DNA of 64,000 nucleotides from the NCBI GenBank assembly GCA_037447655.1, contig JBBHKE010001759.1, positions 17,743 through 81,742 on the forward strand, in the 5' to 3' direction. The position numbers and the translations under genes were made by a program. Shown in pieces: positions 4,329 through 44,559 of this stretch (position 1 is its first letter; every line of letters starts with the position of its first letter). The stretch comes from Zygnema cylindricum (Eukaryota; Streptophyta; Zygnematophyceae; Zygnematales; Zygnemataceae). The notes under the pieces were generated by a model, which did no database searches, was not told the origin of the DNA, and was given only the letters and a program-made list of their open reading frames with translations.

Positions 4329-4859
4329 TCAGAATATAACGTCTTGACCCACCAAACACTCATAGTCGTCACATTTAGTGACCAATGCTCTGACGGCAAT
4401 TTCAACGGACTCATTTTCGGTTCCTGTCTGAAAACGAAAGATGAGCAGGTCCTTTGTGATTCCGAGGACCGGCTCCGTGGTCCCAGCCAAAGTAAGAAGG
4501 CGGGTAGCGGTCGCTTGAAGCTTGTCTGCTGTCAGACCAAGCTTGAGCGCAAATCCGGATCCGAGAATCACGGGTTTGGCCCCAGTGTCCATGAGAGGAA
4601 GAGTGGGGTGAACACCGTTCACAGAGAATGATCCACGAGAGTTATCAAAGAAACTGATATAGGGATCGAGATTACGACGTTCTTCCGTAGTAATCGGTTG
4701 AACCGCTGAAAGACTACGATTTTTATGCAAAGCCCTCAAAGCGGCTGCTGCTGCGACCTCATCAACGAGGGGAAGGGCGTTCGGTACATCCTCCAACATC
4801 CCTGAAAGAATACTTAATCGCTCTTTCACCCGATTAGCCTCAGGAGTAGTGCCATCCAA
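4329..4859 (-). pseudogene. Retropepsin-like protease with C-terminal Gag (X' fragment)
   Basis: An aspartic protease of Gypsy type. LPLMDTGAKPVILGSGFA contains the D-T-G active-site triad and is followed by the usual hydrophobic strand pattern and ECLVGQDVIF near the end. It sits directly upstream (minus strand) of the DNMT core, as in element X, so the order protease-DNMT is conserved between two copies. The frame ends in a stop where X also has a break. N-terminal Gag sequence is missing beyond about 4898. Confidence 0.75.
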
Positions 4860-4898
4860 TATAGTCAGTGCCTTTGCCGCGATGGTAGGAGCGGTTTC

Positions 4899-13713: not shown

Positions 13714-13727
13714 TTGAAATTCCTCAG

Positions 13728-18445: not shown

Positions 18446-18450
18446 GATGG

Positions 18451-21076: not shown

Positions 21077-22411
21077 TGTCGTGCATGAGAGAGAAGCAAG
21101 GAAATCATGCATCATAACCAGCAAAATCATGCTCCAGACATGTATACAAACGAAAATGAATGAGAAAGGAAAAATATATATACAAGATGCAAAAGAATAA
21201 AGATGAAGATGACCAAATGAATAAAAGGGAAGAATACTCCCCTAACGTGAAGTGACCCCTATAATTTATACTCAGCCACAAGGTAGCCACTAGGCTCTTG
21301 GGTCTTCTACGTATTCTTTACATAGTTATCTCATAAGAAAGCAACGAAGCAAAATAAATAATTCCAACCAAAAACAAGGAAAACTCCAAATTCGGCCAAA
21401 ACTCACCCTTCCATTCCCAACCGAAAATACAAACAACAAAAATACAAACACCCAAACCGTTCAGCTGTCCGTGGGAAGGGCAGCCGGATCCGGATGCTTC
21501 TCCACACGAACTCCAATCCACCACTTCCCAAAAATGACACAAGTTGGAGGGAAACCATCAGGACTTGGCTTTGAGCCGCATGGATTAAAAGCGTGGGCAG
21601 AATTACAAGGGATAATGTACGTAAACTATCTAGCCCCTACAGCTAGCTAGCAAAAGAAAAGAAGAAACTTGAGCAATCGGTGAGAGAGAGAGTAAGAGAA
21701 AAGCTCCGCCGCCAAGAGAAAATTCTTGTCCAAAAGCTAGATATTCTAAGTCTGGAAATAGACTAAGTATTAGCTACACTACGCCTACGCAAACCCTAAC
21801 CTAAGTCTAGGCTAGTTCACATGAACGAAATACTTAAGATGTTTGGCCAATAGGCGACCAACATCGTCTGCCGTACGCCTAACAAAATCCACCGTCCGAG
21901 GGTAAAAACCCTCCCTATCTACATGTATGATTGAACCTACGTGGGTTAATGACTTTAAGGAATAAAAGTACATTGAAGCGCCACCAACGCTCCCAGAAAT
22001 CGCGCTTCGTCGCCAAACGATACTTGACGTCTATACTCCAAAATCGCGTACGTACGCACGAAAGGAAACATACCGCAAAAAATACTCCAAGAAATCGTGA
22101 CGCGTCGCCCCAAACGATATTTGCGAAAGTACCATCGAGATCATGTACCTACAAAATGAAACAAAACAAACATTACGCACGAAATTAGTATGTATTCAAT
22201 TAGACGCGTACGCGTATCGCGTACACGTCACAAAAAAGTGAACCAACATGCCACCGCACGTGCGAAACGAAACTTATATATGCGTGCCAAAATATCGCGC
22301 GTGCATGCATGATATTGTGCGCGCGCGTCGGATAACTCCCGTGCGTGCACGATATCGTGCATGCGTGCAAAATATCGTGCACGAGTGCTACCGATACCAT
22401 GCGACATGACA
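21077..22411 (-). repeat. 3' LTR of Gypsy X
   Basis: 1335 bp with perfect inverted termini TGTC...GACA on the minus strand. It matches 39918-41014 from its start up to about GGCTGAGTAT; the last 190 bp (21077-21266) are absent from the 5' LTR but recur at 22414-22590. It contains CpG-dense palindromic sequence at about 22240-22390. No gene. Confidence 0.85.
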
Positions 22412-22413
22412 AT

Positions 22414-22590
22414 TGTCTTGCATGAGAGAGAAGCAAGGAAATTATGCATCATAACCAGCAAAGTCATGCTCAGACATATATACAAACGAAAATGAATGAG
22501 ATAGGAAAAATATATATACAAGATGCAAAAGAATAAAGGTGAAGATGACCAAATGAATAAAAGGGAAGAATACTCCCCTTCCATGAAGTG
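22414..22590 (-). repeat. Extra partial LTR tail of X (tandem copy), split by Copia C
   Basis: Repeats 21077-21255 (TGTCTTGCATGAGAGAGAAG...GAATACTCCCC). The remaining bases, matching 21256-21265, lie beyond Copia C at 30217-30233. Thus a second LTR tail stood before the 3' LTR, only two bases away from it. It carries the AAGTG target site of Copia C. Confidence 0.75.
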
Positions 22591-24981
22591 TGTTTTTCTA
22601 CAACCACCGTTGCAGGCCAAGAACCAGCAGTAGTAGTGGAAGTAGACATGAAAAATAGCAGAAACTATCAAAGTACCTACTCAACATCCAACTTAAAATT
22701 GACACAAAATATGACTCAGAAAGCCAATATGCTTCAAATTCGCCACAGTGATACAAAATACAGTAAACTAACAATTCCCAAAATTGAAGCCCAAATGACT
22801 TTGTAAACCATAAGATATGATGTCAAGAAGTTTCCCAAAAACTGCCCTTAGAAAATCATATTCCCAAAACTGGATGCTACAAAATTGGCTAAGTCCTAAG
22901 CTATATACTCACACTGTCGATCTACTGATCTACACTAAATTTGGTAACCGTTACTACGGATATTATCCTGACTAATGACAAAGCATCCTACCTGTACGTC
23001 ACTGTACCTCAAAACCCTAATTATTATTTTCTAAAAACCTCATTAATGGAACATTATTTTTTTTATCACACTAAACTACAAACTAATGTTATTCAAATAT
23101 TTATAGACATTGAACCATACACAAAACGTTCTAACCGTACACAAAACGTTCCTAATGTTAAGTTAGCGGTAGCCGCTAAAGTCCACCCGAATACGATCGT
23201 GTAGTACGAAGCACCTGAGTGCTTCGTCACTTGTGGTCCCACGTGAATCACGCCTCGTCACTTTGTGGTCGCACGTAAATCACGCCTCGTCACTTGCGGT
23301 CCCACGTGAATCGCGTTTGTCGACGTCTCTCAAAATCAATGATCATAATGCACTTCCGAAATATCCGGATGTTTCTATTTAATGATCATAAAAATATTCC
23401 GTACCATATAATTCCAAAATATCTGTATGACTCCAAAAATACTCGTACCATATATTTTCTGAGATATCCGGATCAGATTCCGTCTGTCTGATCTGGCGAT
23501 TCCAATTCTCTGGTGTGTGACGCGTGTCGACGTCACTCTGTAAAACTTGCAAAGGTACAATACACTATATTGTACTTTGCCTACTGTAACACTAATAAAG
23601 GTAAGTCTATTATTCTTTGGTCTAAAATAGACCGCAGAAGCCACCCAAACTATCATGCAAAAAGCTAAGCGAAGCTAGGCCGATGAACAATCATTTGAAA
23701 AACATCCTCCATATGCGTACACAGACGCAACAAAATGCATACACAGATGCATTAAACAACAACTAGGGTTTCATGGAATAATCAACATAAACAAACTTTA
23801 TGACAACAACTATGGTATGATGGAATAATCAACATAAAAAAACCTTAGGACAAATGCATTAACAATGTATAACAAACAAACATATAAATAATAACACATG
23901 AATGCATCACACAAAAACAAATGTATAATCAAATAATCAATTTATCACTTAAAGTGCATGACCTAATCGACAACCCTAAAATACTACATCTTTGGTCCCC
24001 ACTTTACTAACCAGCATTGATGATAAATTCCTAACAAAGCTCATTCCTATATATACACTTGTGAGCTGTCAACAAATAGATACATGTCAAAATAACCAAC
24101 GTAACTTCCACTAAGTAGTATTACACCATGAGAACATATTACGACAAATAATCCTAACTGTTAGTGTACACCTGAGAGTCGACCAATCATAATAGTACAC
24201 TTGTTTGCAAGTTAGACACTACATACACACAAATTAAATTGCCGAAACCCTAACTGACCACCAAAATAAAAACTGTCATGATCAGTACTAAATTATTAAT
24301 ACACATAAGACAAGACAATGTTGATTTAAATATTTACACCGACGCGTCCGCAAAATCCAGTCGCTAAATGACAACTTGCTTAGTCACTTGTGGACAATAC
24401 CACGTAGTGAACCGACATCACAAAAGTACGGTCCACTTGATAACACGTCATCAAACAATGCGATCCTTGAAAATATCGGCGGACGCCGTCCGCCTTCCAC
24501 GTCTAGCTCGAACCACTGCCGAAATTAAACCATACTATCCAAATCTTGTCCGTACCGAAACTTCGTACCTCTCCATAAATTCCGCCGCTCAAATTCAAAG
24601 TAAGTCCATCCAAAATTGATTCTACGTACCAGTGGCGTTCTTTTTCTATAGATGTCGCCTGTCGCATTATGTTCTGTACGACCGGCAAACACCTTAAATA
24701 TTTCGTACATTTCAGATCAGATCGCTTCGCGATCCGCCGTCCATTTCCCAACGCATTCCGCGCCACTGAATTAGTCCATTAATTTTACTTGTACATTTAA
24801 TTCCCCAATCCGCAAATCCTTTCGAACCTCCACAGTATATCAGATAATTACATACGCACGCAAACATGCATACGCACATACAAAATTTAATCTTCCAAAA
24901 ACAACAAAGTCCTATATACCACTTTTTACAAACTATTCTAAGTCTACTCTATTTACTAACTAAAGATTTCAAATCTCAACA
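22591..24981 (-). repeat. 3' LTR of Copia C, with 1.3 kb of extra sequence
   Basis: 22591-23608 matches 29101-30140 and 24912-24981 matches 30147-30216. The extra segment 23609-24906 is flanked by AAGTC on both sides (23604-23608, 24907-24911), which fits either an insertion here or a deletion in the 5' LTR. I find no coding sequence in the extra part. The LTR holds a three-copy 31-32-bp repeat at 23225-23318 with CCACGTG and CGTCAC motifs. Confidence 0.85.
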
Positions 24982-24993
24982 CTCCCCTGAATC
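24982..24993 (-). other. Polypurine tract of Copia C
   Basis: On the minus strand GATTCAGGGGAG directly precedes the LTR start TGTTGAG, shortly after the pol stop codon at 25005. Confidence 0.75.
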
Positions 24994-25004
24994 TTTAGAC
25001 TCAG

Positions 25005-25666
25005 TTACTCACTTAGTCCAAAAGCTACTCTGCAAAAGTGCAACTTAGGAGCAGGAATGGCTTTTGTTAACATGTCAGCCACCATCTTCTCATCTGGTAA
25101 ATAACACAACTTAATGACTTTTGCAAGTACTTTTTCCCTGACAAAGTGAAGTCTAACATCCATGTGTTTACTTTTAAAATGATGGCTGGGTTTAGAGGCA
25201 ATGGAAATGGCTGCCTGGTTGTCACACCAAATAGACCGAGGACCTTTTTGCATGTACCCAAGTTCATGTAGAATAGACTTGACCCATAGGAGCTCCTACG
25301 GGGCTGAAGGTGCAGCCATATATTTAGACTCCATTGTGGATTGAGCTGTAAACTTTTGTTATTTGCTACTCCAACAGCAAGTTCCATCTCCAATCTTAAG
25401 TACAAAACCAGTTGTAGATTTCCGACTTGGCATGTCCCATAGCTGGCATCGCTCCACGTCTATATTTTCACCTCTTCTCCTCCGAGTATAAGCTTGAGAT
25501 TTCGAGTTCCTCCAAGATATCTCAACACCGTTTTTGCTTCTTCCCAATCTTCCCTTTTAGGATTCTGCAGACTTCTACTCAAGACTCCCACAGCTGCTGC
25601 AATGTCGGGTGTCCTACAATTCATAAAATACATAAGACTTCCGACTACCTATCTATATGGCTTTGA
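25005..25666 (-). pseudogene. Copia C RNase H and connection region
   Basis: On the minus strand: the end of the RT connection (about 25666-25548), KSTTGFVLKIGDGTCCWSS (ORF 25547-25359), and the RNase H with SIWCDNQAAISIASKPSHHF and MDVRLHFVREKVLAKV (25253-25005), ending LHFCRVAFGLSE and a stop. Frame changes separate the pieces. It is closely similar to the Copia A RNase H. Confidence 0.9.
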
Positions 25667-25771
25667 AGCCATAAACTCTTCCTCCCCTGTCTCTAGACTC
25701 CCACCAACCATTATGTCTGAATCTGTATCAATTCCTTCCAATTTTTGCCTGAATTCCATAGGAGTTACAGA

Positions 25772-26473
25772 TCATTTTACATCTCTCATTTCAAATCTTT
25801 CCAGCATGTTACCTATAGCTTCTTTTTGAGTCAACATAATCAGCCTCTTGTTTCTGTCTCTTTCTACCTGTAATCCTAAGATGTATTTTGCCTCACCGAG
25901 GTCCTTCATCTCGAGCCTAGACCTTAAAGCCGCTTTGATGCGGTTTATTTCAACCATTGACTTACTTATTAATAATAGATCATGCACATATACAGCAATG
26001 TAAATTACCCCATCCTCTCCTTGTAGAACATATACAGAATGATCTGAGCTAATTCTCTTAAAATCTAGCCCAATCAAAAACTCATCTAACTTCAGATTCC
26101 ACTGACACGGGGCTTGTTTTAGCCCATACAAAGATTTCATCAATTTAAACACTAATTCTTCCTTTCCCTTTTCAACATACATTTCAGGTTGTTGCATATA
26201 AATTGTTTCTTCTAACTCTCCATGGAAGAAAGCAGTTTTAACATCCATCTGATATATTTCTATATTCTCTATAGCCGCTAGACTTAGCAAAATTCTGACA
26301 GTGGGAAATCTAACAACTTGGGAGAAGGTTTCCTCAAAGTCAATACCTTCTTTTTGATTATATCCCTTGGCCACTAGTCTTACCTTATACCTTTCGATGG
26401 TGTTGTCCGGGTTCCGCTTCACCTTAAATGCCCATTTGCTGCCGATGGCTTTCCTGCCCGAAGGAAGATCCAC
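25772..26473 (-). pseudogene. Copia C reverse transcriptase, catalytic Asp replaced
   Basis: An uninterrupted 233-residue RVT_2 domain: KAIGSKWAFKVKRNPDNTI, QKEGIDFEETFSQVVRFPT, QMDVKTAFFHGELEE and LMKSLYGLKQAPCQW are all clear. The active-site motif reads YVHD instead of YVDD, so one of the two metal-binding aspartates is His. The preceding linker lies at 26480-27039 with breaks. The frame ends at a TGA before VTPMEF. Confidence 0.92.
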
Positions 26474-26479
26474 AAGCTC

Positions 26480-27039
26480 TTATGTCTGTGCCTCCATAAT
26501 GGACTTCATTTCATCGTTTGTCGCCTCGATCCACTGATTTCTCTTAGGTGATGAGAAGGCCTCCAGGATCATTAGAGGCTCCTCTGTAGCTGGAGAAAAA
26601 ATAAAGTGAGAGCTTGCTTGCAGACAGCTGCTAGATCTCTTTCCCCCCGGAAATTCAAAGGCTGAGATTGTCGGCAACCTCTTATTTCTCTGTTTAGTTT
26701 GAACCGAACTTGATCTAGTACAGAATGTGTAGTAGTTCCTTCCACCTAAGGTGTAGCTTGTGGTGAAGCATCTTGTAAAGGCACCAGAGGAACTGAAGGA
26801 AGAGGTGTCCCACTTGCCGATGGAAAGTAGACTCGCTGCGTATGGTGAAAAATGACATATTCTTGCTTTTCTTTTGCCGGTTGATCTGACACTTGAAACA
26901 GGTCAACCGAATCAAGTTCATCTTTAATCAGGATATTTCTAGAAACAATCACTTTCTGTTTCTCAAGTAGAAACACTCTATATCCTTTCGCATTATCATC
27001 ATACCCCATGAAAATCCCAGGTAAGCCTTTAGGCTCCAT
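26480..27039 (-). pseudogene. Copia C linker between integrase and RT
   Basis: On the minus strand 27039-26746 carries MEPKGLPGIFMGYDDNAKGY, the typical post-integrase block (G.F.GY....KGYR), then a low-complexity Ser/Pro linker and 26677-26480 with the block preceding RT (WIEATNDEMKSIMEAQT). Stops lie at about 26744 and 26478. Confidence 0.8.
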
Positions 27040-27198
27040 TTTCCATCTATCATGTGAAGTATCTAAAATAAAACACCTGCTACCTAAGATCTTAAAATGA
27101 CTAACATCAGGTTTTTCCCCAGTCCAAAGCTCATAAGGTGTAGTGCTAACAGACCTAGAAGCAATTATATTTTTAATATAAACAACACAGTTAAGTGC

Positions 27199-27836
27199 TT
27201 AAGCCCAGAATTTCAAATCTAGCCCTTTATCTACAAGCATGGACCGGGCACTCTCTGTCACTGTCCTATTTAATCTCTCAGACACACCATTTTGTTTCGG
27301 TGTATATGGAACTGTAAGATTGTGACTGATACTTTCGTGAAGGAGAAATTCTTCGAATTCAATCGATGTGTATTCTCCCCGTTGTCTGATCTTAACGCCA
27401 ATATTGGAACTCCATGAAGCTTTTCCGCCCACGCTTTGTAGTGTTTAAAGTGAGTAAACACTTCACTTTTATGTTGCATGAAGTAAACTTTGGTGTACCT
27501 CGAGTAGTCATCTGTAAATGTGACCATATAGTGGACCCCTCCAGCCGAAGCCACTTGTGAAGGACCGAGAACATCAGAATGGATGAGCTGCAAAACTTTT
27601 TCCGATCTATGGTATGTTTCCTGTGGAAATGGCAATTTGTGGATCTTGCCAAGTGAACAACCATCACATGTTTTTATAGGATGAGATGTGAGAGAAACTC
27701 CATCAACTTTTCCCGAATTCACCATTTTCTTTAGACTATCATAATTCATGTGTCCTAATCTCTTATGCCATAACTCATTATCAAATTCGACACTTGAGTA
27801 GAGAACATCATTTTCTTTATATTTAGCCATGTCCAT
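27199..27836 (-). pseudogene. Copia C integrase
   Basis: On the minus strand the pre-integrase zinc module (HKRLGHMNYDSLKKMV ... CDGCSLGKIHKLP) is followed by the core with D in LIHSDVLGPS, D in ALRSDNG and, after a frame change near 27400, E in NGVSERLNRTV. One frame change and stops flank it; otherwise it is well conserved. Confidence 0.9.
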
Positions 27837-28141
27837 CCTTTACATTTTGCTAACATCTCTAGTTCCTGTTACTACGACTTTCCCTTTCTTGCTAACAACC
27901 TGTTCCCTCCTTTCAAAGCAACTTCAAAGCCTTTGCTCTCCACTAATGATGTAGAAAAAAGATTTTAACCCTAAAAATTTGGAATATACAAAACATTGTG
28001 AAAGGTTCTCTCTACCAACTTTCCCCCCACATCTACCATCAATGATACATCACCCTGAGCTGAGGTTTGAACACTCATGCCGCAAGCATATTAGATACTC
28101 TTTGGAGATGTTTGTTGCAGATTCGTAAAAGCCGCCATGTT

Positions 28142-28810
28142 CTAACACATGTGGGCAGACGCTCCCGTGTCCATGAACCATCCTGCATACTTTGGACCCT
28201 CCATGGCAGCCGCCATAGCAAAGAAATCCGCCTCCTCTTGCTCATTGAAGATGAGAGACTCATCTATATCAGTTGCAGAAGCTGAAAAAAGAGCATTTCC
28301 ACGGGAAGGATTTCCAGAAAAACCTTTGTGATACTGGCTCTGCTGCCAACCTGGCCTGTATAAACTTGTCTCATTAGCCTTCTTCAATTTTGGACAGTAC
28401 CTGTATCCATGACCCTTCTCAAAACAATAGAAACAAGTAGTAGTAGATGGCCTATTCTGCCTTGGATTAAACTGATTTTGATTCAGATTAAACTGATATC
28501 TTTTGTCAAAGTCTGTTGCAAATGCTTCAACCTTTCCTTCTCCATCAAGGAGTTTAGTATTTGTTTCTTCCTCGAATATAAGATTATACGCTAACTGAAA
28601 TGACCAGCTAGCTTTATCATGACTCTTTAATTGAACAGACACACCCTTTATGCTACTAGGGAGACCTCTAATAAGCAAAGTTGTCTGTTGAAACTCAAGA
28701 AATGACCCCCCAGCAGAAGAGTGAGCATCAATGAGCGCGCGAAAATTGTCACAATACTCAACCATAGTTCCCCCCGTGTATTTGTATCCCCAATTTTTTC
28801 CAGCCACCAA
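28142..28810 (-). pseudogene. Copia C Gag C-terminus with zinc knuckle and protease start
   Basis: An uninterrupted 222-residue frame with capsid helices (LIDAHSSAGGSFLEFQQTT, LIRGLPSSIKGV), a CCHC knuckle CFYCFEKGHGYRYC and the protease motif WFMDTGASAHMC (D-T-G). The rest of the protease (28141-27837) is broken. Confidence 0.9.
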
Positions 28811-28819
28811 GAGCTCCTC

Positions 28820-29158
28820 CTAAACATTCGCTTTCTCAAAAGCGGATTTGAGGGATGTCCAAATCTCCCTCGCCTTCTTCATTTTCAGTCGAGACATGAC
28901 CAAATTTTCTGAAATACAAAGAATTAGATTGTTCCTTGCCATTGAATTCTTTTTCGCCCAAGTTGGATCTGTTTCATCAAGGGAGCCATCCAAGACCCCC
29001 AATAAGTCAACAGTTTCAAACGACGATTCAACCATCGCCGCCCAGTACGCATACTTTTGGCCATTGAAGATAGGAATTCTTGACAAAAGGCCCATAACCA
29101 GTAGTTCTACAACCACCGTTGAAGGCCGAGAACCAGCAGTAGTAGTGGAAGTAGACAT
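28820..29158 (-). pseudogene. Copia C Gag N-terminus, starting inside the 5' LTR
   Basis: Starts MSTSTTTAGSRPS and contains IPIFNGQKYAYWAAMVESSF, the usual Copia Gag N-terminal block, ending in a stop before the frame of 28810-28142. Its first codons (29158-29101) lie in the repeated LTR end, so the ATG is part of the LTR if the LTR boundary is as inferred. The same start also occurs in the 3' LTR at about 22645. Confidence 0.8.
29089..29100 (-). other. Possible primer-binding site of Copia C
   Basis: On the minus strand TGGTTATGGGCC follows the inferred LTR end. It begins with the universal TGG and partly resembles Met-type primer sites. It lies inside the Gag reading frame, so the assignment is tentative. 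Confidence 0.4.
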
Positions 29159-30216
29159 GAAAAACAGCAGAAACTATCAAAGTACCTACTCAACAGCCAA
29201 CTTAGAATTGACACAAAATATGACTCAGAAAGCCAATATGCTTCAAATTCGCCACAGTGATACAAAATACAGTAAACTGACAATTCCCAAAATTAGAGCC
29301 CAAATGACTTAATAAACCATAAGATATGATGTCTGGAATTTTCCCAAAAAACTGCCCTTAGAAAATCATATTCCCAAAAACTGCCCTTAGAAAATCATAT
29401 TCCCAAAACTGGATGCTACAAAATTGGCTAAGTCCTAAGCTATATACTCACACTGTCGATCTACTGATCTACACTAAATTTGGTAACCGTTACTACGGAT
29501 ATTATCCTGACTAATGACAAAGCATCCTACCTGTACGTCACTGTACCTCAAAACCCTAATTATTATTTTCTAAAAACCTCATTAATGGAACACTATTTTT
29601 TTTATCACACTAAACTACAAACTAATGTTATTCAAATATTTACAGACATTGAACCATACACAAAACGTTCTAACCGTACACAAAACGTTCCTAATGTTAA
29701 GTCAGCGGTAGCCGCTAAAGTCCACCCGAATAAGATCGTGTAGTACGAAGCACCTGAGTGCTTCGTCACTTGTGGTCCCACGTGAATCACGCCTCGTCAC
29801 TTTGTGGTCGCACGTAAATCACGCCTCGTCACTTGCGGTCCCACGTGAATCGCGTTTGTCGACGTCTCTCAAAATCAATGATCATAATGCACTTCCGAAA
29901 TATCCGGATGTTTCTATTTAATGATCATAAAAATATTCCGTAACATATAATTCCAAAATATATGTATGACTCCAAAAATAGTCGTACCATATATTTTCCG
30001 AGATATCCGGATCAGATTCCGTCCGTCTGATCTGGCGATTCCAATTCTCTGGTGCGTGACGCGTGTCGACGTCACTCCGTAAAACCTGCAAAGGTACAAT
30101 ACACTCTATTGTACTTTCCCTACTGTAACTTTAATAAAGGTGAGTCTTATATACCACTTTTTAGAAACTATTCTAAGTCTACTCTATTTACTAACTAAAG
30201 ATTTCAAATCTCAACA
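29101..30216 (-). repeat. 5' LTR of Copia C
   Basis: About 1116 bp. It begins TGTTGAGATTTG on the minus strand at 30216 and matches 22591-23608 plus 24912-24981 of the 3' LTR. It holds the three-copy 31-32-bp repeat at 29764-29857. Reading frames such as 29480-29743 are LTR sequence. Confidence 0.85.
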
Positions 30217-30233
30217 AAGTGACCCCTATAATT

Positions 30234-30248
30234 CCCCCCCCCAGCTCC
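30234..30248 (-). other. G-rich polypurine tract before the 3' end of X
   Basis: On the minus strand a GGAG segment and a run of G lie between the PHD stop codon and the LTR-tail sequence AATTATAGGGG. This is the expected place for the plus-strand primer, although an extra LTR tail follows rather than a clean LTR start. Confidence 0.45.
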
Positions 30249-30476
30249 TTAGCCTGCGGAAGAGCTGGTCAAAACCATTGGCGGCTCACGACGACCATGG
30301 CAAAACAAATGGCCAGCTGGCACAGCTGTCAATGGAGGAACTAAGCACTCCATGTGGAACCCTTGGTTACAATGGTCGCATAAGAGCATGGAAGTCTCGC
30401 CGTCTGCTCGCCTGCAAATGGTACATTCGGTCGCCTCTGTGATTGGCATCCTCATCGGATCCATATCCTGTGACAA
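30249..30476 (-). pseudogene. PHD finger at the C-terminal end of the X integrase
   Basis: The minus-strand frame shows a C4HC3 PHD-type zinc finger: CTIC, then MLLCDHC, then GFHMEC and finally LFCHGR, followed by a short tail and a stop. The family consensus ends C-x2-C; here the last Cys position is Arg (CGT), one transition away from a Cys codon (TGT). PHD fingers of this kind read histone H3 tails. It follows the integrase C-terminus directly, the place where chromoviruses carry a chromodomain, so it would plausibly steer integration. A frame change separates it from the preceding integrase frame (30780-30452). Confidence 0.82.
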
Positions 30477-31095
30477 ATCCGGTAAGTAATAAGGTGCACA
30501 GTTCTTTGAATGCTCTCGATTATCCTGGTATCCGCACCCTGGAAACCCAACATCCCATTAGCATCCATTTCCACCACACGAAGAATGTGTAGTGAAACAT
30601 ACGTGTCCAAAGTGTCGAAAGATTGTCGTCGAAGGTATACGTAATCTCCGACTTGGTAAGATTTCTGTTGAGGCTTGTAACTGCCACTTTGCTTGGTGGC
30701 AAAGCGCAAAGTATCCCGATGTTGGACAATATGAAAATTATCAAAAGCCATAGGCATCTCACGAGCAAAAAGCAAAGCACGGCGAGTTAGTTTTCTTCCA
30801 AGAATATGGTGTCAGACATTAGAGGCAAAGGTAAACTTGTTGCTTTCTAAATATTCCGACCGAGCAAGGGTGCTCGACCGAAGAGAATATAGTACGGGCT
30901 GAAATTAGCCAAGCTAGCGTGTACAGACATCCGGTAGCCCATGGTGATATAACCCAAGGATTCGTCGCAGACAGAGATGTGTTTCTCCAAACAATGCTTT
31001 TGGAGAGCTCGCTTGAAAGTTTGGACAGCTCGATCCGCCAAGCTATCGGCTTGTGGGTGATCACAACTCTGAAACTCTGAGACCTCCATTGGCCC
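30452..31095 (-). pseudogene. Gypsy X integrase, C-terminal half
   Basis: On the minus strand 31089-30847 holds the end of the integrase core (SCDHPQADSLADRAVQTFKR, where ADRA is at the catalytic Glu position, and SPYYILFGRAPLL). 30780-30452 holds the C-terminal barrel-like part (KSYQVGDYVYLRRQS, VVEMDANGMLGFQGAD). The two frames differ by a shift. In other Gypsy integrases the equivalent of ADRA reads AER; here Asp stands for Glu. Confidence 0.82.
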
Positions 31096-32232
31096 TCAGA
31101 GTAAGCAGATCCAAAAAGAAGCTTATCTAGATAGTGCCGACTCCAAGTGGATATAAACCCAAATGACTGACCCTTTGACAATCAAAACCCAAATATAGAT
31201 TCACCCCTATGAAATAACACTTTCTGTGTGGTCAGTTCCACCACCCAATGCAAAGTTAGAATATGAGATTTGGACACATTCACCCACTTTGACTTTCCCT
31301 TAGAAATATCGCCACCCTGGCAGACAAAAACTCTGACCGACTACACCCCTGTGTAGCGTGGACTCCTCTGAGTCCGCAGCAAAAAGAATCACTGAAAATG
31401 GTCAAGTAAATTGATAGTTATGGCTGGCCAAAGTTTGCCATTTATACAAGGTGCTCTCTGGGAGAGGCAGCTACTTACCCAAAATTTTCTAAGTCCTATT
31501 TCCCCTCTAAAACTCTATCTACTGAAGTACGGCACCAATCAAATTACTGTGTCGTACAGAAAAGTACAGGTGCCGGTGTACTTTCTGTACGGCCATTGTA
31601 CAACATGGCCAAATTGTCGACACGTGTCATAGACGGATTCGTTCCCGCAATCTCCGGAGTCGCCGCAATCCAACATTGTCGCGCCACGTGTCACATGAAG
31701 TGGCGATGGCTGAAAAACGCCAAAAGTACATGTTCCGTGATCGCGGCACCTATCGCGCCCGTCCGATCAAAAACCGGCTATAATCTTAGCCGCTGAAATT
31801 CGACGCGCGGTATTTGTTTCGCTATCGAAACAAATGCGCGGTATCCGTTTCGTACCCGTACTGTACTCCGTACTATATTAAAACGGTATCTATGTACTAA
31901 GAATCTATTTCCCGTTAAACGATTTAGTCTACGCGTAACAATGTATATTGTAATCAAACCTAACGTAATGTAACACTAGTTTTAGGTTTAACGGTTAAAG
32001 GCAACGGCTACGCCCACTTGTCAGACGGCAGGTTTCAGGTTCAATACCTGGGTCCGTCAAGTACATTTTATTAAATCTACCTAATTCACTTTCTGTCTTC
32101 TCTAGAGAGTTTAGGTAGCCATGGCTCTAGCTCCCTTTCCAGCCTTCAGTGACTACAGCAAGTGTGGGGGCTTAGAGAAGGGGACTTAGAGGCAGACGGC
32201 ATCAGCTCTTTTTCTATCATAATACAGACCTA
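31096..32232. other. 1.1-kb insert of unknown type in the X integrase gene
   Basis: The integrase reading is interrupted between DEALINHCRTS (right side) and SCDHPQADS (left side), where related elements are continuous. No credible coding sequence lies in the insert. It has a hairpin at 31812-31835 (10-bp stem ATTTGTTTCG, 4-base loop) and a tRNA T-arm-like sequence at about 32030-32057. A short GAGTTT occurs at both borders and may be a target duplication. Confidence 0.55.
32000..32058 (+). other. Possible tRNA-derived (SINE-like) segment
   Basis: GGTTCAATACC matches the Pol III B-box consensus and folds as a T-arm; GACGG and CCGTC flank it. An A-box is only weakly recognisable (around TTTAACGGTTAAAGGC at 31987). 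No full cloverleaf can be drawn. Confidence 0.3.
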
Positions 32233-32289
32233 GAAAATACTCAAATATCAACAAACTCGTCCGACAATGATTAATTAAAGCTTCATCCA

Positions 32290-32806
32290 ACATTTCTTGA
32301 AATTCCCCTTTGAACTCCGTACCCTGGTCCGTGAGAACCTATGCAGGAGCTCCATAACGCATGAGAACGTTCTCTTTAAAAGCAGCGGTGGTCAATTTAG
32401 CTGTCTTGTGGGGAAGAGTGACCACCTCTACCCACTTGCTAAAAGTTTCAATCATTATCATGATGTATTGTTTCCCCTTTCAAGATAAGGGAAACGGTCC
32501 AGCAAGATGGACGGACCAGCGATAAAACAATCCTCTGATGGGCAATGGTTGTAGCGACACCTGCCGATTAGAGAAAGAGGTGCGTAAGCGCTCGCATGTG
32601 GCGCATTTGTGGAGAATGGCCGCCACATCCGCTTGCATTTCGGACCACCAATAGCGTGCCTTTACAAGGATCAAAGTGCGCTTGGTCTCGTCATGGCCAA
32701 GCTCAGTATGTATCTGCTCAATCAAGGACAAGCGCTCGGTTGGCCGGGGGACATGTCGATGAATGCTGTCCGCCAGCAATCGAACTAAAGATCCGTCGAG
32801 CCACAT
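32290..32806 (-). pseudogene. Gypsy X integrase, N-terminal half
   Basis: The zinc-binding module H-H-C-C is clear (HTELGHDETKRTLI ... CATCERLR, 32806-32480), followed beyond stops by the core around FSKWVEVV and TDQGTEFKGEFQEML (to about 32290). Broken by stops near 32480 and by the insert at 32232. Confidence 0.82.
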
Positions 32807-32830
32807 ATAATTTTTGGCTCGTTTCTTTAC

Positions 32831-33286
32831 TCAGTCTTCCTCCTCGGCGGTAGTACCGGGTCGAAAGGTTTGAGAGGAGAGGAAGAAGATTAATGGGCCG
32901 TCGCGCCACGGATCCGTGGCCGGCCGAGGGTGAGGCATAGAAGAGAGACAGTAAGTGATATACGAACCAGCCAACATGGCCGGTACCTCGTCCTCGTCGA
33001 AATCTTGCCGGACATTGTTATCGATGGTCCCGGGTAGTGGGTTCCGAGAAATCCCGTCGGCGTTCAAGCTTAACAAACCGGGCCGATGGATGATCTCAAC
33101 GTCCTACTCTTGTAAAATTAAAGCCCATCGGGCAAGCTTCCCTGAAAGCTTATCGATAGTCATCAACCAATGAAAGGGGTGAGGGTCAGTTAGGAGCGTG
33201 AATGGCTTGCCGTACAGATAATGTCGAAAATGAACAATACCCCATACGGCGACGAGACATTCACCCTCGTAACTACAGTAATTAGA
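32831..33286 (-). pseudogene. Gypsy X RNase H and linker
   Basis: On the minus strand: YEGECLVAVWGIVHFRHYLYG and LLTDPHPFHWLM (RNase H blocks), then the frame 33076-32831 (NADGISRNPLPG, the usual post-RNase-H block). The RNase H start (LQTDFGKPGILAILTQ) lies in the preceding RT frame. Several stops are present. Confidence 0.8.
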
Positions 33287-34486
33287 TTAAGCTCGTTTAT
33301 TGTTCCGGTTGGCGTATGCCAATACGTTTTCCTCTCCGTTCAACTCTCTTTGCGTTAAAATAGCCAAAATGCCTGGCTTCCCAAAATCGGTTTGTAGGCA
33401 AAAGGGAAGCTTGTGGTTAGGAGGTCGGAGAATGGGAGCGCTGGAAAGGGCGGTTTTCAGTTTTTCAAACGCTTCTACTTGGGTGGGTCCCCAAACAAAA
33501 GGCACTTCTTTTTTGAGAAGGTCGTTTAGGGGAGAAGCAAACGTACTAAAATTCAGTACAAATAGACGATAATAATTGGCTAATCTGAGAAAAGCCCTCA
33601 GACTAATGAGATCTGTAGGGGCCACAAGTTTAGTGATAGCCTCTACCTTAGCTTCCAAAGGAGTGATGCCCTCAGCTGAAATAAAATGGCCGAGATAGGG
33701 CACTCCCTCCGCACCGAAAGTACACTTGGCTGGGTGACACTTCAGCACGACTTTCTTTAACTCGGTGAGAACCCACTCAATATGGCACGCATGCTCCTCA
33801 ACTGTGGCGGAAGTGATTATCAAGCCATTGATGTAGCACCGGGCAACTTTACATCCACCCAACACCGAATCCATGACTTTTTGAAACACGGCGGGTGCGT
33901 TCTTAAGACCGAAAGGCATAACTGCCCATTCCCACCGACCATCACTGCCCCAAAATGCAGTTTTATGCCGATCTCTTTCCTCGATTTCAAACTGGTTAAA
34001 CCCTTGACGCAAGTCAAAAATGCTAAAGAACTTTGCACCACCTACATGGTCAAATATTTCCTCCGCTAGAGGCATAGGGTAGTGGTCTTGAACAGTCCGG
34101 GCATTGAGCTCCCGGTAGTCCCCACACATTCTTCGCTCAATAAAATTTCCGTCGGAGTCTTTCTTCCTAGGAATGACTGTGGGGGCGGCAAAGGTGGAAA
34201 CCGACCGATAGATTAGACCGGCTTCTTCCAATTTTGCGCATCTTTTGTCCACCATGTCCCATTCCATTTCAGAGAGACACTATTTCGGCTTAAAGATAGG
34301 TCGATCGTCTTCAAGGTCGATTAACATTTTGTAAGTAGAATGACGTCCAAGGTCATTCATGGAGAAAGCAAACACATCTATATGACGGGTGAGTGTGTCA
34401 GTTAATAGTGTCTGTTCCGCCTTTGTGAGACTGGAACCGAACTTCCACTTGGGCGTCTCGAGACTCTTGATAGTGAAAGCTTCCAT
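33287..34486 (-). pseudogene. Gypsy X reverse transcriptase, active site destroyed
   Basis: RT reads 34486-34280 (MEAFTIKSLETPKWKFG, the pre-RT block), a stop, then 326 open codons 34267-33287 with CGDYRELNARTVQDHYPMPL, FSIFDLRQGFNQF, AVMPFGLKNAPAVFQKVMD and YLGHFISAEGI. The catalytic Y-x-D-D box reads YING, so both aspartates are lost (Asn and Gly). The first change fits GAT to AAT at a CpG, a common product of methylcytosine deamination. The length of this piece and its later decay suggest that X was active not long before. Confidence 0.93.
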
Positions 34487-34522
34487 GGCTTCAGCAAATG
34501 CAATTTGCTCATCGGCGATGAG

Positions 34523-36121
34523 TTAGTGGCCTAACTCGTATTTTACCGGAGTCTGCTGCAAGCAATTTACCCAGTGGTGCCAGCTACGCGTCAAAAATGC
34601 AGCTGTCCAGTGCGGTGCCGGACCAGGAAACGATGAAATTGTGGATTGAACGGCTGTATAGGCTGGGATTTCCCAAGACATATGACTGGGGTTGAGGAAA
34701 TCATAGATGGAGATGTTTTTAACCGCAGGTGTGAGAGAAGGGAAGAGAAAAAACTGAAATGGATTTCCCTTGAGACTAGGAGAGGTGCGAAAGGAAATAA
34801 GACGTGAAGGAGCCGCCGTATTCCCCCCCCCCCCAGCTGGTTGCATGGGGTGATTCTCTACGTAGCGACCAGCTGCAAGGCCGAGACCTAAGACAAATGA
34901 TAAAGACTGAGGATCCATGACCCTACCCAACAAAGTGCAACGTTGTCTGCGTGTAAGGTCGGGGGGCGCAGTAGTGCATTCAATAAAATGCATGAGATGC
35001 TCCCGTTCTGTGGCAGTAGGCTCCTCTAACTCTCTAGTGACATTATTCCGGAGCATGTTTGGACCGTTATGAGAGTATGCATGGGAATTAAGGTAAGACA
35101 CTAAAGTAGGAAGGACCTAGAGGGGCTGGCCAATTACATTAATGTTGTAATTTGGAGGGTAGTTAGATTAGACACATGATTGGACTTTGTGGAAAGGAAG
35201 CAAAGCGGTTGTAATGTCTATAGTGGGAGGTCGTACCAACAAATTAGCCTCACAAATACGACCAACATTGATTAGGTTCGTCCATTTGGAGCGAACACGA
35301 TGTGCCTAGGACCCATGCCGAGCGACATCAATAATTAGCGGGGGTCCAACAAGGTGTTTTATGCGCTTATAGTCAGCCAAAATTGTAGGCCGAGGATCAT
35401 TATAAGCTGCGACGTTCTCTAAAATGTATCTGACAGGCTTGGTCATGGTTTGAAGAAAATGAAGGACCCTCAAAAGCTCAAAAAACAATTTGGTACGGGG
35501 ATTTGCCAAACCAAAACCTTTGCCTTCCCAAGACCTGCCTTGACACTCCCACCCCCCAAAAACAAGGTCTATCGGTTCGACATCCCGTAGATGATGATTA
35601 CTAAGGATGTGAATGTCTTGAGGAAGAGCAGTATGCATGTGTAGAAAGGCTGACTGTGGAAAAAACTGTGGATACTGTGAATGTAGGAGATTATAGTGGT
35701 GCAATTGTGCTTTTCTAACTAATGCGTCAATTTCTACTGCAAAGTAGTAACGGATGAGGAGACCATTCCGTAAACATGACAATAGTGAAGTTCCGATCCC
35801 AGGGAATAGATCTAAAATATTGACCCCGTCCGTATGAGGACTCGGCTGTACGGGCTTCCAACTGATAGGCAAGAAACCCAAAGGATCGGTTGCAATTGTA
35901 GGTATAGGAGGGATAGTCGTTAATGGAATAGATAATGTGGACTTATAAATATTGTCAAATGTGTGAGATTTGATAAGAAAACCCGGTTGTGCAAAGAGCT
36001 CGGGTAAGGGGGAACTATCCAGTATAATTTCTTCGGCCGTAAGAGAGTGGAAAATTTCCTCCCCAACGGAATTCCCTAAAAATGCGGGAAGAGCCGTAGC
36101 CGAGTGAGCCATAGTGGGCAA
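34523..36121 (-). pseudogene. DNMT3/DRM-like cytosine-5 DNA methyltransferase encoded by Gypsy X
   Basis: A single frame of 533 codons interrupted only by three stops (35303-35305 and two near 35170 and 35128). Domains on the minus strand: an N-terminal extension of about 95 residues; motif I DLFPGIGTSL; the adjacent VEIDA; motif IV DLVFGGWECQGRS with the catalytic Cys but Glu in place of the usual Pro before it; LFFELLRVLHFLQ, as in DNMT3; motif VI ILENVAAY; motif VIII AHRVRSKWTN; and motifs IX-X around LTRRQRCTLLGRVMDPQSL. It would methylate DNA cytosines using S-adenosylmethionine. It lies between protease and RT, so it was made as part of the polyprotein. A C-terminal part of unknown role (to 34523) leads to RT. 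Confidence 0.88.
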
Positions 36122-37195
36122 AGGTTAACGGGCTAAAATGAGAGGGAGGCAGATTTTGCGCTCTGGAAAGTGTGTCAGTCAGTAAGAAAATGTTTGGTCG
36201 TGCATGTCAACGCCACCGCGAATTCAGAATATAACGTCTTCGCCCACCAAACACTGATAGTCGTCACATTTAGTGACCAATGCTCTAACGGCAATTTCAA
36301 CGGACTCATTTTCGGTTCCTATCTAAAATCGAAAGATGAGCGGGTCCTTTGTGATTCCGAGGACCAGCTCCGTGGTCCCAGCCGATGTGAAAAAGCGGGT
36401 AGCGGACGCTTGAAGCTTGTCTGCTGTCAGACCAAGCTTAGGAGCAAATCCGGATCCGAGGATCACGAGTTTGGCCCCGGTGTCCATGAGAGGAAGAGTG
36501 GGGTGAACACCGTTCACTGAGAATGATCCACGAGAGTTATCAAGGAAAAAAATATGGGGATCAAGATTAAGACGCTCTTCCGTAGTAACCGGTTGAACCT
36601 CTGAAAGACTGCGGTTTAACTGCAGAGCCCTCAAAGCGGCTGTAGCTGCGACCTCATCAACGAGAGGAAGGGCTTTCGGTACATCCTCCAACATCGCTGA
36701 AAGAATACTTAATCGCTCCTTTACTTGATGAGCCTCATGAACAGTGCCATCCAATATGGTTAGTGCCTCTGCCGCGATGGTAAGAGCGGTTTCCGGTAGG
36801 GAAGGCAGAGGCTCTTTTGCAAATGAGATTGGGACACGAGAATTTTGTAATTTGCCCACTCGATTATGGTCTGCTGAGCCCTTTTCAAATGTAGCTACCC
36901 GTTTTTGGACGGTGGAATCCTGAAGGGTTCGCCCGGCCAACGACGGCATATGGACAACGGTCTTAGCCATCCCAGTAAACTGGGGTTTCATTTCCGCCAT
37001 GAAAGGTGCAAATTGCTCTTTCATCATGGCCGCCATCATGGCTTGAAGATCGGCTTTCTCTCTCTCTCTACGAGAGATCTTAAGAGGAGCTTCCTCTTTC
37101 CATGTCTCCTTAGGCAGAGTGATTGGTTTCGCAGAACGGGCCGAAATTCTACCGTTTTTTATCTGATTTTGATAAGTGAAATTAGGGTCTTTCAT
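36122..37195 (-). pseudogene. Gypsy X protease and C-terminal Gag
   Basis: The 290-codon frame 37195-36323 begins after the knuckles and holds a basic/charged segment, a long spacer and the retropepsin motif LPLMDTGAKLVILGSGFA (D-T-G). The protease end (LVGxDVIF-type strand) and a spacer follow in another frame to 36122. The same order is seen in X' (4329-4859). It is continuous with DNMT downstream apart from the breaks. Confidence 0.82.
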
Positions 37196-38223
37196 ATGGC
37201 ATCGATGGACATAATGTCCCTTTTGGTGGCAATGATTGCGAGTGGCCGCCTAGTCACGACACATGCGGTCATCGTGCCCGGTTTTTCCACATCGAAAACA
37301 CATACGGTTTCCGGGACTAACAGGTGGAGTTCCAATGGCTGGCGTCTTCTGGGCCTATTGGGAGGCCATGGGTTTTTAGGTGGAGGAGGAGATGGATTAA
37401 CCGGTTCTCAGTGAGGAGTTTTGGAACGCTCATAGGCGTCCCACCACGATGTGTGCATCTCATACTCTAGCGCGTATTGAGCGGCTTGCTCAAAGGTGAA
37501 TTTCAGTCCATACATCTGGCTGAGGTGGTTTTGGATAAACCTCTTTGATGGAACTGGAAAGTGTCCCACAAATTTCTAGACAGCCTCCGCATCGGACATG
37601 AGGATTGGTAATGCCTCTCGCAGAGTTTCCATCCGAGCTCGCAAGGCGGAAGCAGTTTCACCTGGCCTACGTTCGAAGTTCATCATCTCTTTGATCTGAT
37701 CCGGATTTTGCATCCGGTACTCCTCTTGGAGGATGTCAAACATGACGGACAGAGGGTCACGTAAAGGAATGGTTCCCCCCGCTCTAGCTGGGACCGCCGC
37801 CCAGGCATCCACTGCATAATGACGAGGGACCTCGGAGATAGCGGGATACAACCCGTCCCCAATAGCAACTAATACCGTCGGTCTCGCAGCCTGATATGGG
37901 ATATTCACTTGGCCGAGGACTTCTGGTAACCCCGCAAACGGAGCCACGTACTCTCTCATCGCAAGAACATCCTCGTACTTGCGAGTGTAGAGAGTGAGGG
38001 CCGTACCACGGAGGTATCGACCGAGAAGGGAAAAAGCGACATGGAGGTCAAACCTATCTTGATATCTAAATGTTAAATCCCTCATTTCCGTGTCGTATAA
38101 CTTACGAAAATGCGATAAGGACATGTTGTCCTTTAATTCGGAAAAGCACAATTGCATTTTACTCATGGATCCCTCTGACGAGGAAGCCATGTTGTAAAGA
38201 GGAGGATAAGCCGGTTGTGCCAA
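37196..38223 (-). pseudogene. Gypsy X Gag with zinc knuckles
   Basis: 215 open codons at 38223-37576 form a capsid-like region (FRYQDRFDLHVAFSLLGRYL, DILQEEYRMQNPDQIKEMM, RRPGETASALRARMETLRE). After a stop the reading continues to a CCHC knuckle CFRCGKTGHDDRMC and a second, incomplete one (CHQKGHYVHRC) at about 37300-37200. The true start may be an ATG near 38503 (MPTDWDNLQYL), separated by a frame change. Confidence 0.75.
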
Positions 38224-39917
38224 AAGTTGGGCTCGCTGGGAACCTACGAGTGTGAGGAGTGGGAAAGGTTTCCTCCGGAAAGTCTTCTTCGGTCCCCTCT
38301 AGGTATGACCTAGATGAAACCGAGGACAATGATGACGTAGATGTGAGACTAGACCGCACTGATGGCGATCTGCGATCCGCAATTAGATCGGATGTGGTCA
38401 ACAATTCAGGAAATCCGAAGGATTTAACTGCGGAGGACGATAGAGTGTACCTCCTCGGGTGGACCCGGATAAATATTGAAGGTTATCCCAATCTGTGGGC
38501 ATAAACAAAGGGGAAAACCCTGACTACAATAATGAAATGTTTCGCACGACCTAACCGAGATGCAACACGTGTCAGACCAATCCACTCATCCAGTCAACAC
38601 ACTCAGTCACTATCAAGACCCGATGGTCATATCTAGCAAGAAGTCGGTTTACCAAAACCTCTACCCTGCAAACAGTTGGCAAGGCCAAAGGGCCAGATCT
38701 ATAAAAACAAGAAAATGGCTATCCAGGCACCTTTGGGTGCAGATCTACAACAACACAGCCGGGAAAAGGTCTACACAGTGCCACCCACGGCAAGATCTAG
38801 GAAGAAATCCCACTCCTGATAGTCACACGAAAATCCAAGGCCACTTAGGGCCAGATAGCATGCAGGGAAAGCAGGAAAATGCCAATGCTCAATAAGAAAG
38901 GTTCACAATGGAACCAATCCACACCGCTCCCCTACACGCGTGTCTACACGAAATCGGAACGCTCCTGCACCCGCAAGGCATCGACTACTTACAGACACCT
39001 TTAGTACTCTGGTGAGCACTAAGGGTGAACCGAACTTGTTCGAAGCAAGTCGGGTTTTGCAAAGCTCCCGAGGATAAAATTTGCTCCACGAAATTCGCTC
39101 CACGCAACGTCTCCCAAAATAACCCTCCGTACAGTGAAGATGTACGCCGTGGAATGTTAGGGAACCAATGGAAGGGAAAAAAATAACGTTGGGTGGATGA
39201 AAAATAACCAATAAGAAGCACAAAGGTGATAGATAGGAAAAAAGTGTTAGAATAAAGTCGTAGGCCGCTCAAACTCTAGATATACAGCCAATCTGGTGAC
39301 CACAATACTCAAAAGCCAGCGGCCAACCCTAATTCCACTTGAAAAATCCTAATTCCACTTGAAAAATCCTAATTCCAAAGCCAAACCCTAATTCTAGACG
39401 GCTAAAACTCAAAATCTGCAGCCAAGGAATAGAAGGATACCGTCCTAAGGACTAGAATCAAAAGGAATAAACCCTAAATCTGCTGCAACCCTAATTCTGC
39501 AGCCAAAACCCTAATTCTGCCTCCAAACCCTAATTCTGCAGATTAACCCTAATTCTGCAGATTAACCCTAAATTTGATACAAAATTTAGGTTTAACACTA
39601 AAGCCAAGAAATATAGTGGTGACAGAATAAGAGACAAAGATTAAAAGAAAGAAATAGCGGAAACAAAAACAAAATGTTTTTTTTTTCTTTTTTTTTTTAT
39701 AAAATAAAATTTATAAAATTAATTAATTTTGTAATATTTTTATTTCAAAGCAAAACTGAAAACGAAATGTAATTTGGAAAGAAAATAGAAGAGACCAAGC
39801 TATGAATTAAAACTGAAAATGAAAGGTGATATTTTTTTCTTTTATAAAATAAATTTGATATTTTTAATAATTTAATTCAAATAAAAGCTTTTGAAATGCG
39901 AAGTCTTTTGGACAAGA
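38224..39917 (-). other. Leader of Gypsy X, non-coding, with telobox-like repeats
   Basis: No convincing gene. At about 39325-39580 the motif ACCCTAA(T/A) recurs about eight times in 250 bp, mostly as CCCTAATTCTGCAG units. At 39660-39880 the sequence is AT-rich with long T runs. Reading frames such as 38903-39223 (minus) and 38259-38504 (plus) show no recognisable domain. Confidence 0.6.
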
Positions 39918-41014
39918 ATACTCAGCCACAAGGTAGCCACTAGGCTCTTGGGTCTTCAACGTATTCTTTACAAGAGTTATCTCGTACGAAAGCAACGAAG
40001 CAAAATAAATAATTCCAACCAAAAACAAGGAAAACTCAAAATTCGGCCAAAATTCACCCTTCCATTCCCAACCGAAAATACAAACAACACAAAACAAACA
40101 CCCAAACCGTCTAGCTGTCCGTGGGAAGGGCAGCCGGATCCGGATGCTTCTCCACACGAACTCCAATCCACCACTTCCCAAAAATGACACAAGTTGGAGG
40201 GAAACCTTCCGGACTTGGCTTTGAGCCGCGTGGATTAAAAGCGTGGGCAGAATTACAAAGGAGAATGTGCGTAAACTATCTAGCCTCTACAGCTAGCTAG
40301 CAAAAGAAAGGAAGAAACTTGAGCAATCGGTGAGAGAGAGAGCAAGAGAAAAGCTCCGCCGCCAAGAGAAAATTCTTGTCCAAAAGCTAGAAATTCTAAG
40401 TCTGAAAATGGACTAAGTATTAGCTACGCTACGCCTACGCAAACCCTAACCTAAGTCTAGGCTAGTTCACATGAAAGAACTACTTAGAATGTTGGCCAAT
40501 AGGCGGCCAACATTGTCTGCCGCACGTTCCGCATAATCCACTGTCCGAGGGTAAAAACCCTCCCTAACTACATGTATGCGCGAACCTACATGGGTTCGCG
40601 ACTTAAATAAACATATGTATCGAAGCGTCGCCCGGAAATCGCGATACGCCTCCAAACGATACTTCACGTCGATACTCCCCAAATCGCGTGCGTACGCACG
40701 AAACGAAACATATCGCACGAAATATATGGTATCGCACGAAATACTTGAAAAATGTGTACCTGCGCACGAAACGACATGGTACCACGCACGAAATTAGTAT
40801 TTGTTCTATTAGACGTGTACGCGAATCGCGTACACGTCAAACATAAATAAATCGCGGTCGCACGTGCGACCGAAAATCATACACGCACGCCGAAATATCG
40901 CGCGTGCATGCATGATATTGTGCGCGCGCGTCGGATATTTCCCGTGCGTGCACGATATCGTGCATGCGTGCGAAATATCGTGCACGCGTGCTACCGATAC
41001 CATGCGGCATGAGA
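39918..41014 (-). repeat. 5' LTR of Gypsy X
   Basis: Matches 21267-22411 in order and orientation. The outer end at 41014 reads ...CATGAGA in place of ...CATGACA. The last 190 bp of the 3' LTR are absent here. It is strongly CpG-bearing at 40790-41000, with the 16-bp palindrome TGCACGATATCGTGCA. Confidence 0.83.
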
Positions 41015-41367
41015 GACTCCAACCAACTGTCGCATTAAGTTCAACCGAAGCGGAGTATAGGGCTGCGTGTCATACGTCTAAGGCGACGATTTGGATTAAG
41101 GAGATACTTAGAGAATTGGGGATTACGATTGGATGCATGAAAATATTTTCTAGCAGTATGAGTTCGATGGCGTTGGTAAAGAATCTAGTCTTTCACAAAA
41201 GGACAAAACGTATTAGGATTCAGTGGCACTTCATACGCGATTTGGTCACCGCAAAGGGAGTTGAATTTTTGTACGTTTCGAAGTTGGAGGAAGCCGCGAA
41301 TATGTTTACGAAAGCCGCGAGTCATGATGTACTTTTGAGGGGAAAACCTAAATTAGGGTTGGTGTAA
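41015..41367 (+). pseudogene. Copia D RNase H, 3' part
   Basis: Resumes the frame cut at 21076: LQPTVALSSTEAEYRAACHT, IWIKEILRELGI and IRIQWHFIRDLVTAKGVEFLY, ending in TAA at 41365-41367. The reading joins exactly to SWSSR at 21062-21076 once X and one GACT are removed. It is the shorter half of one RNase H domain. Confidence 0.93.
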
Positions 41368-44557: not shown

Positions 44558-44559
44558 TA

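Follow-up and report, generated by a model that had tools for sequence, protein, structure and literature searches.

According to the available text of a 2025 DNMT paper, C5 DNA methyltransferases (DNMTs) of the DNMT3 type occur within retrotransposons of streptophytes and dinoflagellates. The main text of de Mendoza et al. 2018 (PMC5890265) describes KnitGypsy-Dnmt3 of Klebsormidium nitens, in which a Gypsy Pol is combined with a Dnmt3-related DNMT, intronless and under purifying selection, and whose repeats are, in the words of the Fig. 4 legend, 'the same as that of a DIRS retrotransposon'. The same text describes SymbioDIRS-Dnmt3 of dinoflagellates, with a Dnmt3 in Pol and repeats arranged A-coding-B-A-B. 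Here we analyse a stretch of 64,000 nucleotides from Zygnema cylindricum (the window, whose coordinates are used throughout; contig JBBHKE010001759.1), in which positions 21077-41014 are filled by a single minus-strand Ty3/Gypsy element that encodes both a DNMT and a PHD finger. We consider it rather probable that this element belongs, as a degraded copy, to a multi-copy Ty3/Gypsy family of streptophyte type with the order Gag - protease - Dnmt3-like DNMT - reverse transcriptase (RT) - RNase H - integrase - PHD, acting by the mechanism proposed below.

KnitGypsy-Dnmt3 is the closest precedent, as it shares with the Zygnema family both the DNMT within a Gypsy Pol and the DIRS-like repeat layout; the two are set side by side here by description and not by sequence. 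A PHD finger, which the Zygnema family carries, is not mentioned for KnitGypsy-Dnmt3 in the main text of PMC5890265. The same holds for SymbioDIRS-Dnmt3, which moreover uses a tyrosine recombinase in place of the DDE integrase found here. A K. nitens protein (P0012) is 47% identical in its RT, and no DNMT part was seen in it by eye. The preliminary description of the window, made from its letters alone, knew of no described family with exactly this combination. The DNMT-Gypsy part was already published (PMC5890265); for its pairing with a PHD finger, an incomplete literature check turned up no description of an element that has the two domains.

Profile searches and self-comparison delimit the element and its domains as follows, with L001 denoting a related contig and C1344 another copy in the host genome, both described below.

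21073..21076, no strand: target-site duplication GACT, left copy (same letters as 41015-41018)
21077..21266, minus: repeat B2, 3' end of the element, ending ...GACA in element orientation (94% identity to B1 over 179 bases)
21267..22411, minus: repeat A2 (aligned with A1; Kimura two-parameter distance, K2P, 0.124 over 1095 sites)
22414..22590, minus: repeat B1, part one, cut by a Copia insertion (matches 21076-21254)
30222..30233, minus: repeat B1, part two (aligned to B2)
30234..30242, minus: polypurine tract, G9 in element orientation (equivalent tract in host copies)
30300..30425, minus: PHD finger closing Pol at its C terminus, without the eighth ligand (CHGR) (PF00628, 6e-11 in 30249-30557)
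30524..30805, minus: integrase C-terminal region (L001 open reading frame 2, ORF2, residues 864-957, 46%)
30850..31068, minus: integrase core, 3' part (L001 ORF2 776-849, 50%)
32255..32830, minus: H2C2 zinc-binding domain of the integrase with the first core part (Integrase_H2C2 PF17921, 7.5e-14 in 32480-32830; L001)
32342-32479, minus: rve match within the integrase (5.6e-4, below the Pfam cut-off)
33107..34441, minus: RT and RNase H (RVT_1 PF00078, 9e-24, and RNase H PF17919, 5e-14, in 33287-34279)
33107-33286, minus: RT_RNaseH match (PF17917, 4e-16)
34847..36124, minus: DNMT, Dnmt3-like, motif IV GWECQG (DNA_methylase PF00145, 2.1e-7 in 35306-36124)
36323..36607, minus: retropepsin-like protease (PF13650, 1.3e-4 in 36323-37249, below the Pfam cut-off; L001 ORF1 from residue 475)
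37195..38298, minus: Gag, frames shifted, with a zinc-knuckle remnant (likeness by eye to the N-terminal part of C1344)
39918..41014, minus: repeat A1, 5' end of the element (aligned with A2)
41015..41018, no strand: target-site duplication GACT, right copy (same letters as 21073-21076)

The order of Pol, with a Gypsy-type RT and an H2C2/rve integrase, is that of Gypsy elements. Of the Gag-to-PHD order proposed in the preliminary description, the part from protease to PHD is supported by profiles and by collinearity with L001, the protease match being below the cut-off; Gag was recognized by eye only, and a Pfam search of its region gave no match. The two profile checks which that description had called for, DNA_methylase and PHD, both succeeded on the window frames (PF00145 2.1e-7, PF00628 6e-11). 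The element inserted into a Copia gene, and deleting one GACT rejoins the RNase H frame of the latter as ISWSSRL|QPTVALSSTEAEY.

In the host genome (G000, 353 Mb), pieces of the element used as queries yielded 142 scored DNMT matches from 1509 candidates, 150 listed PHD matches from 782 and 121 RT matches from 3862. Among the matches listed, 43 of the 142 DNMT places are followed, on the same strand and within 5 kb, by a PHD match, in most cases at ~3.55 kb, where random placement would give 0.15; within the same distance the reverse order was found 0 times and opposite strands 2 times. Two stretches each were then fetched for ten DNMT places, picked for open frames and thus a biased sample. 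In all ten, the DNMT, RT, integrase and PHD matches lie in line, several with frameshifts, and in C1344 an open frame of 2395 amino acids is given for the DNMT, the RT and the PHD match alike. The complete eight-ligand PHD motif is present in 8/10 fetched copies, the exceptions being C82 and C232, the latter with CHGC in place and another ligand missing.

The window copy by itself might be a composite by accident, in which the DNMT or the PHD came from a separate insertion or from a captured host exon, and nesting is indeed common here, as the window copy holds two other insertions. However, the same order in all ten fetched copies, the single C1344 frame and the same order in L001, which has exactly the window's REHSKNCAP ahead of the PHD, leave this explanation with a negligible probability; since other copies carry the two domains in a single frame, a separate insertion of either is ruled out. 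The refuting result named beforehand, that no other copy would hold both domains, thus did not materialize, and the claim of a Gypsy element with a DNMT and a PHD can be extended to a multi-copy family. The DNMT and the PHD finger are both native parts of Pol.

When prokaryote genome contigs were scanned with an RT alignment, four loci were found, L001-L004. These Gypsy-type RT contigs lie in metagenome-assembled genomes assigned to a cyanobacterium, Bacillota, Rhodoferax and Methanosphaera and are presumably eukaryotic contamination. L001 is a contig of 9285 bases that was binned with the cyanobacterium and whose content is eukaryotic. Its first frame holds a protease-like stretch (below cut-off) and the DNMT, with zinc knuckles seen upstream by eye, and its second frame holds RT, RNase H, integrase and PHD. 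Both proteins are collinear with the window over 36607-34847 (8e-73), 34441-32255, 31068-30850, 30805-30524 and 30518-30300, at identities of 50% for RT, 38% over 188 residues for the DNMT and 42% over 76 residues for the PHD region. In L001, PCQ and ENV are in place, as are the eight PHD ligands. The protein database also contains a protein (P0005) in which the C terminus of a DNMT is fused to an RT. Among the best 120 of 677 RT relatives, the top named ones are from Calypogeia, Klebsormidium and Closterium (46-50% identity), followed by those of flowering plants, a fungus and insects (~35-44%). The pairing of DNMT and PHD is shown in numerous copies and for at least two lineages.

L001 begins and ends with the same 127 bases, so that the contig represents a circle or a collapsed repeat. 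It has a G7 tract and, ~280 bases further along, the inverted repeat CTTGACTTGACA-TCTT-TGTCAAGTCAAG. These ends fit the split-repeat plan described below and are not proof of it, because the contig contains one repeat set only. Between the DNMT and RT frames the stop reads TAG CAA TCA (L001:3489-3497), which fits a tobamovirus-type readthrough context that would leave the DNMT on the Gag side. We do not rely on this idea, because at this position C1344 is open and the window sequence is TAA CTC.

In its own orientation, the window element is laid out as A1 - internal - polypurine tract - B1 - A2 - B2. The preliminary description had it bounded by long terminal repeats (LTRs) and a GACT duplication. 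The duplication was confirmed, whereas plain LTRs at both ends are ruled out by the split layout in the window and the host copies. All four repeats were located in 6/10 fetched copies, and the other four are incomplete: A1 was not found in C1407, A2-B2 is lacking in C2577, B was not found in C82, and C783 runs into the contig end. The repeats are 100% (A) and 99.6% (B) identical in C1344 and at least 99% identical in C829 and C1063; C232, C605 and C449 are older. A polypurine tract of G9-G14 has the same location in 9/10 fetched copies, none being seen in C82, and the B1|A2 junction reads GACA-GC-TGTC in seven of the ten and GACA-AT-TGTC in the window. The termini are TG...CA, and of seven insertions for which both ends were read by eye, five show a perfect 4-bp duplication (TTGG, AAGG, TTGT, CCAT and, in the window, GACT), as in Gypsy elements with their short integrase-made duplications. 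The TGTC...GACA termini together with the 4-bp duplications point to a DDE integrase that acts on split-repeat ends.

Split direct repeats of the form A1 ... B1 A2 B2 are described for the Ngaro, PAT-like and VIPER tyrosine-recombinase (YR) retrotransposons in the available text of PMC6681497. The Zygnema family shares these repeats but not the recombinase, having instead a DDE integrase, TG...CA termini and 4-bp duplications: both frames of L001 gave no phage-integrase-type match at E<=0.01, and rve and H2C2 were found instead. DIRS/YR retrotransposons are not known to produce a target-site duplication, in contrast to the 4-bp duplications present here. The family thus has DIRS-like split repeats alongside a DDE integrase and clean 4-bp duplications in one element, a combination for which we know of no worked-out replication mechanism.

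It could be argued that the layout is the frozen by-product of one founding insertion of a two-LTR circle, which was then merely copied and reflects no replication design; by reasoning, such a circle cut at one B|A junction would indeed yield A-internal-B-A-B. We consider this quite unlikely. The same junction occurs in seven copies whose DNMT piece shares 60-88% identity with the window, and the near-identical repeats within young copies argue that the layout is regenerated in each cycle. In addition, the same layout is described for KnitGypsy-Dnmt3 in the main text of PMC5890265.

A profile built from five host DNMTs and L001 hit DNMT3C/3A/3B first in the PDB (6e-15), ahead of HaeIII (7e-7) and DRM2 (1e-4). 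The enzyme is thus, like that of KnitGypsy-Dnmt3, a Dnmt3-type DNMT in a Gypsy Pol, as assigned by score and without a tree. PHROG 116, a phage family, scores 2e-25 on L001, and phage records reach up to 72 bits, so that a phage-like relative is a possible source of the DNMT. A protein-database search with the window DNMT piece gave no match. Two viral contigs (L005 and L006) contain DNMT-like stretches with 34-41% identity to the DNMTs of the elements and are possible phage-side relatives; three other viral-contig scans were without match.

The PHD finger is nearest to those of PHF12, Lid/KDM5, UHRF1 and CHD4, with PHF12 and Lid matches in the PDB; a protein-database search with the window PHD piece gave no match. 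Many of these fingers read histone H3 without K4 methylation. PHD fingers that read K4me3 have a cage tryptophan two residues before the histidine, and the glycine that the family has at this position also points to H3 without K4 methylation. Chromoviruses carry a chromatin-reader domain at the integrase C terminus, namely a chromodomain, where the Zygnema family has the PHD finger. The family lacks this chromovirus feature, as searches for a Chromo domain found none in 30452-30811 of the window (E<=1) or in L001 (E<=0.01). In arthropods, retrotransposons that captured a methyl-CpG-binding domain, reportedly described by de Mendoza in 2019, likewise took up a host chromatin-mark reader, but one for methyl-CpG, and we know of no methyltransferase in them. 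The finger might instead serve nuclear import or particle assembly. This seems doubtful, as it resembles the fingers of chromatin proteins and its position after the integrase matches that of the chromodomain in other elements.

The preliminary description suggested that a methylation writer paired with a chromatin reader would let the element steer integration and mark, or mask, its own DNA. Along these lines, we propose that the parts may work together as follows. The DNMT, encoded between protease and RT, would travel with the RT complex and methylate newly made cDNA. The PHD finger, at the chromodomain position of chromoviruses, would bind the H3 tail, most likely with K4 unmethylated, and thereby tether the integration complex to such chromatin. 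The B1|A2 junction GACA-GC-TGTC may represent already joined ends, so that a joined or circular cDNA could be opened there by the integrase and the termini regenerated. DNMT3A pairs a methyltransferase with an H3K4me0-type reader, its ADD domain. With a Dnmt3-type writer and an H3K4me0-type reader in one polyprotein, the element would rebuild the host's own logic of de novo methylation: it would dock at H3K4-unmethylated chromatin and insert pre-methylated cDNA from a joined-ends intermediate, and the new copy would look like host heterochromatin from the start. We offer this extended reading, which goes beyond the mechanism proposed above, as speculative and assign it a low probability. Methylation of cDNA as camouflage or protection is discussed in the main text of PMC5890265, chiefly for the dinoflagellate DIRS elements.

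Several observations weigh against our main reading of the family and its mechanism. For the other 99 of the 142 DNMT places, the matches listed include no PHD at most 5 kb downstream, which does not mean that they lack one. Two of the seven insertions read at both ends deviate: no duplication matches in C605, and in C449 3/4 bases agree. Given the protease upstream, DNMT and PHD may separate after translation. AlphaFold models reached a mean pLDDT of 36 and 43, too poor for use. For the Klebsormidium DNMT, no activity was seen in yeast, a result that its authors call inconclusive (main text of PMC5890265). Finally, motif IV reads GWECQG, and not PCQ, in 7/7 distinct stop-free host copies and in both window copies. 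The proline of this motif is nearly invariant in active DNMTs, and catalysis in the host family is therefore uncertain.

The exchange of proline for glutamate in all seven copies, along with the yeast result, would be expected if the DNMT were a catalytically dead passenger, kept as a structural or DNA/RNA-binding part while only the PHD acts on chromatin. This is a possibility of some weight, although we think it unlikely, because other motifs are mostly kept (DLFAGIG in 4/5 host members aligned, ENV/ENI in 7/8 host entries, L029 deviating in both), L001 has motif IV as GWPCQG, and pN/pS is low. Median pN/pS was 0.19 for the DNMT (26 pairs), 0.135 for the PHD (26 pairs), 0.10 for RT-RNase H (8 pairs) and 0.07 for the integrase (2 pairs), values that come from copies selected as stop-free, with synonymous sites near saturation, which again counts against the main reading; pairs with pS <=0.04 were excluded and L008 and L019 are one copy. 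Jukes-Cantor-corrected ratios were 0.068-0.179 for the DNMT (5 pairs) and 0.020-0.455 for the PHD (7 pairs), the two highest printed PHD values being pairs with the dead window copy; for RT and integrase 0 pairs were computable. As described for KnitGypsy-Dnmt3, the DNMT of the Zygnema family thus appears to be under purifying selection.

The window copy itself is dead: many stops break its frames, a Copia element and a further insertion interrupt it, and a PHD zinc ligand is lost, the eighth being R (CHGR) as opposed to C (CHGC) in 8/8 other host copies listed. The K2P distance between A1 and A2 (0.124) indicates that the copy is old. The insertions and a second copy are located as follows.

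22591..30216, minus: nested Copia element of 7.6 kb, separate from the Gypsy element (RVT_2 7e-68, gag_pre-integrs, rve; target-site duplication AAGTG, 22586-22590 / 30217-30221)
31070..32253, no strand: LTR-like insertion (TG...CA) of 1.2 kb in the integrase (target-site duplication GAGTT)
3119..4898, minus: second, shortened copy with protease and DNMT only (89.8% to 35014-36793; PF00145 3.5e-5)

Within the nested Copia element, the left LTR holds an insertion of ~1.3 kb (23609-24907), and an A-like scrap lies at 5289-5375 near the shortened copy. Two further Gypsy elements of the window, at 10623-18451 and 43509-51353, are related to each other, with internal parts 94% identical. Used as a control, they align to the RT-integrase part of L001 and not to its PHD or DNMT, and a motif scan of both found neither the PHD pattern nor W(E/P)CQG. 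In self-comparison, their repeats resemble plain LTRs, and a tandem array with a period of ~95 bases occupies 57457-59054.

Compared with the published DNMT-Gypsy elements, the Zygnema family adds the PHD partner, 4-bp duplications on split repeats and a wider distribution. It represents a mobile element that retains a DNA-methylation enzyme domain together with a histone-reader domain. As its young copies can be set against the specificity of the reader, together with their insertion sites and methylation, the question why retrotransposons capture DNMTs becomes testable.

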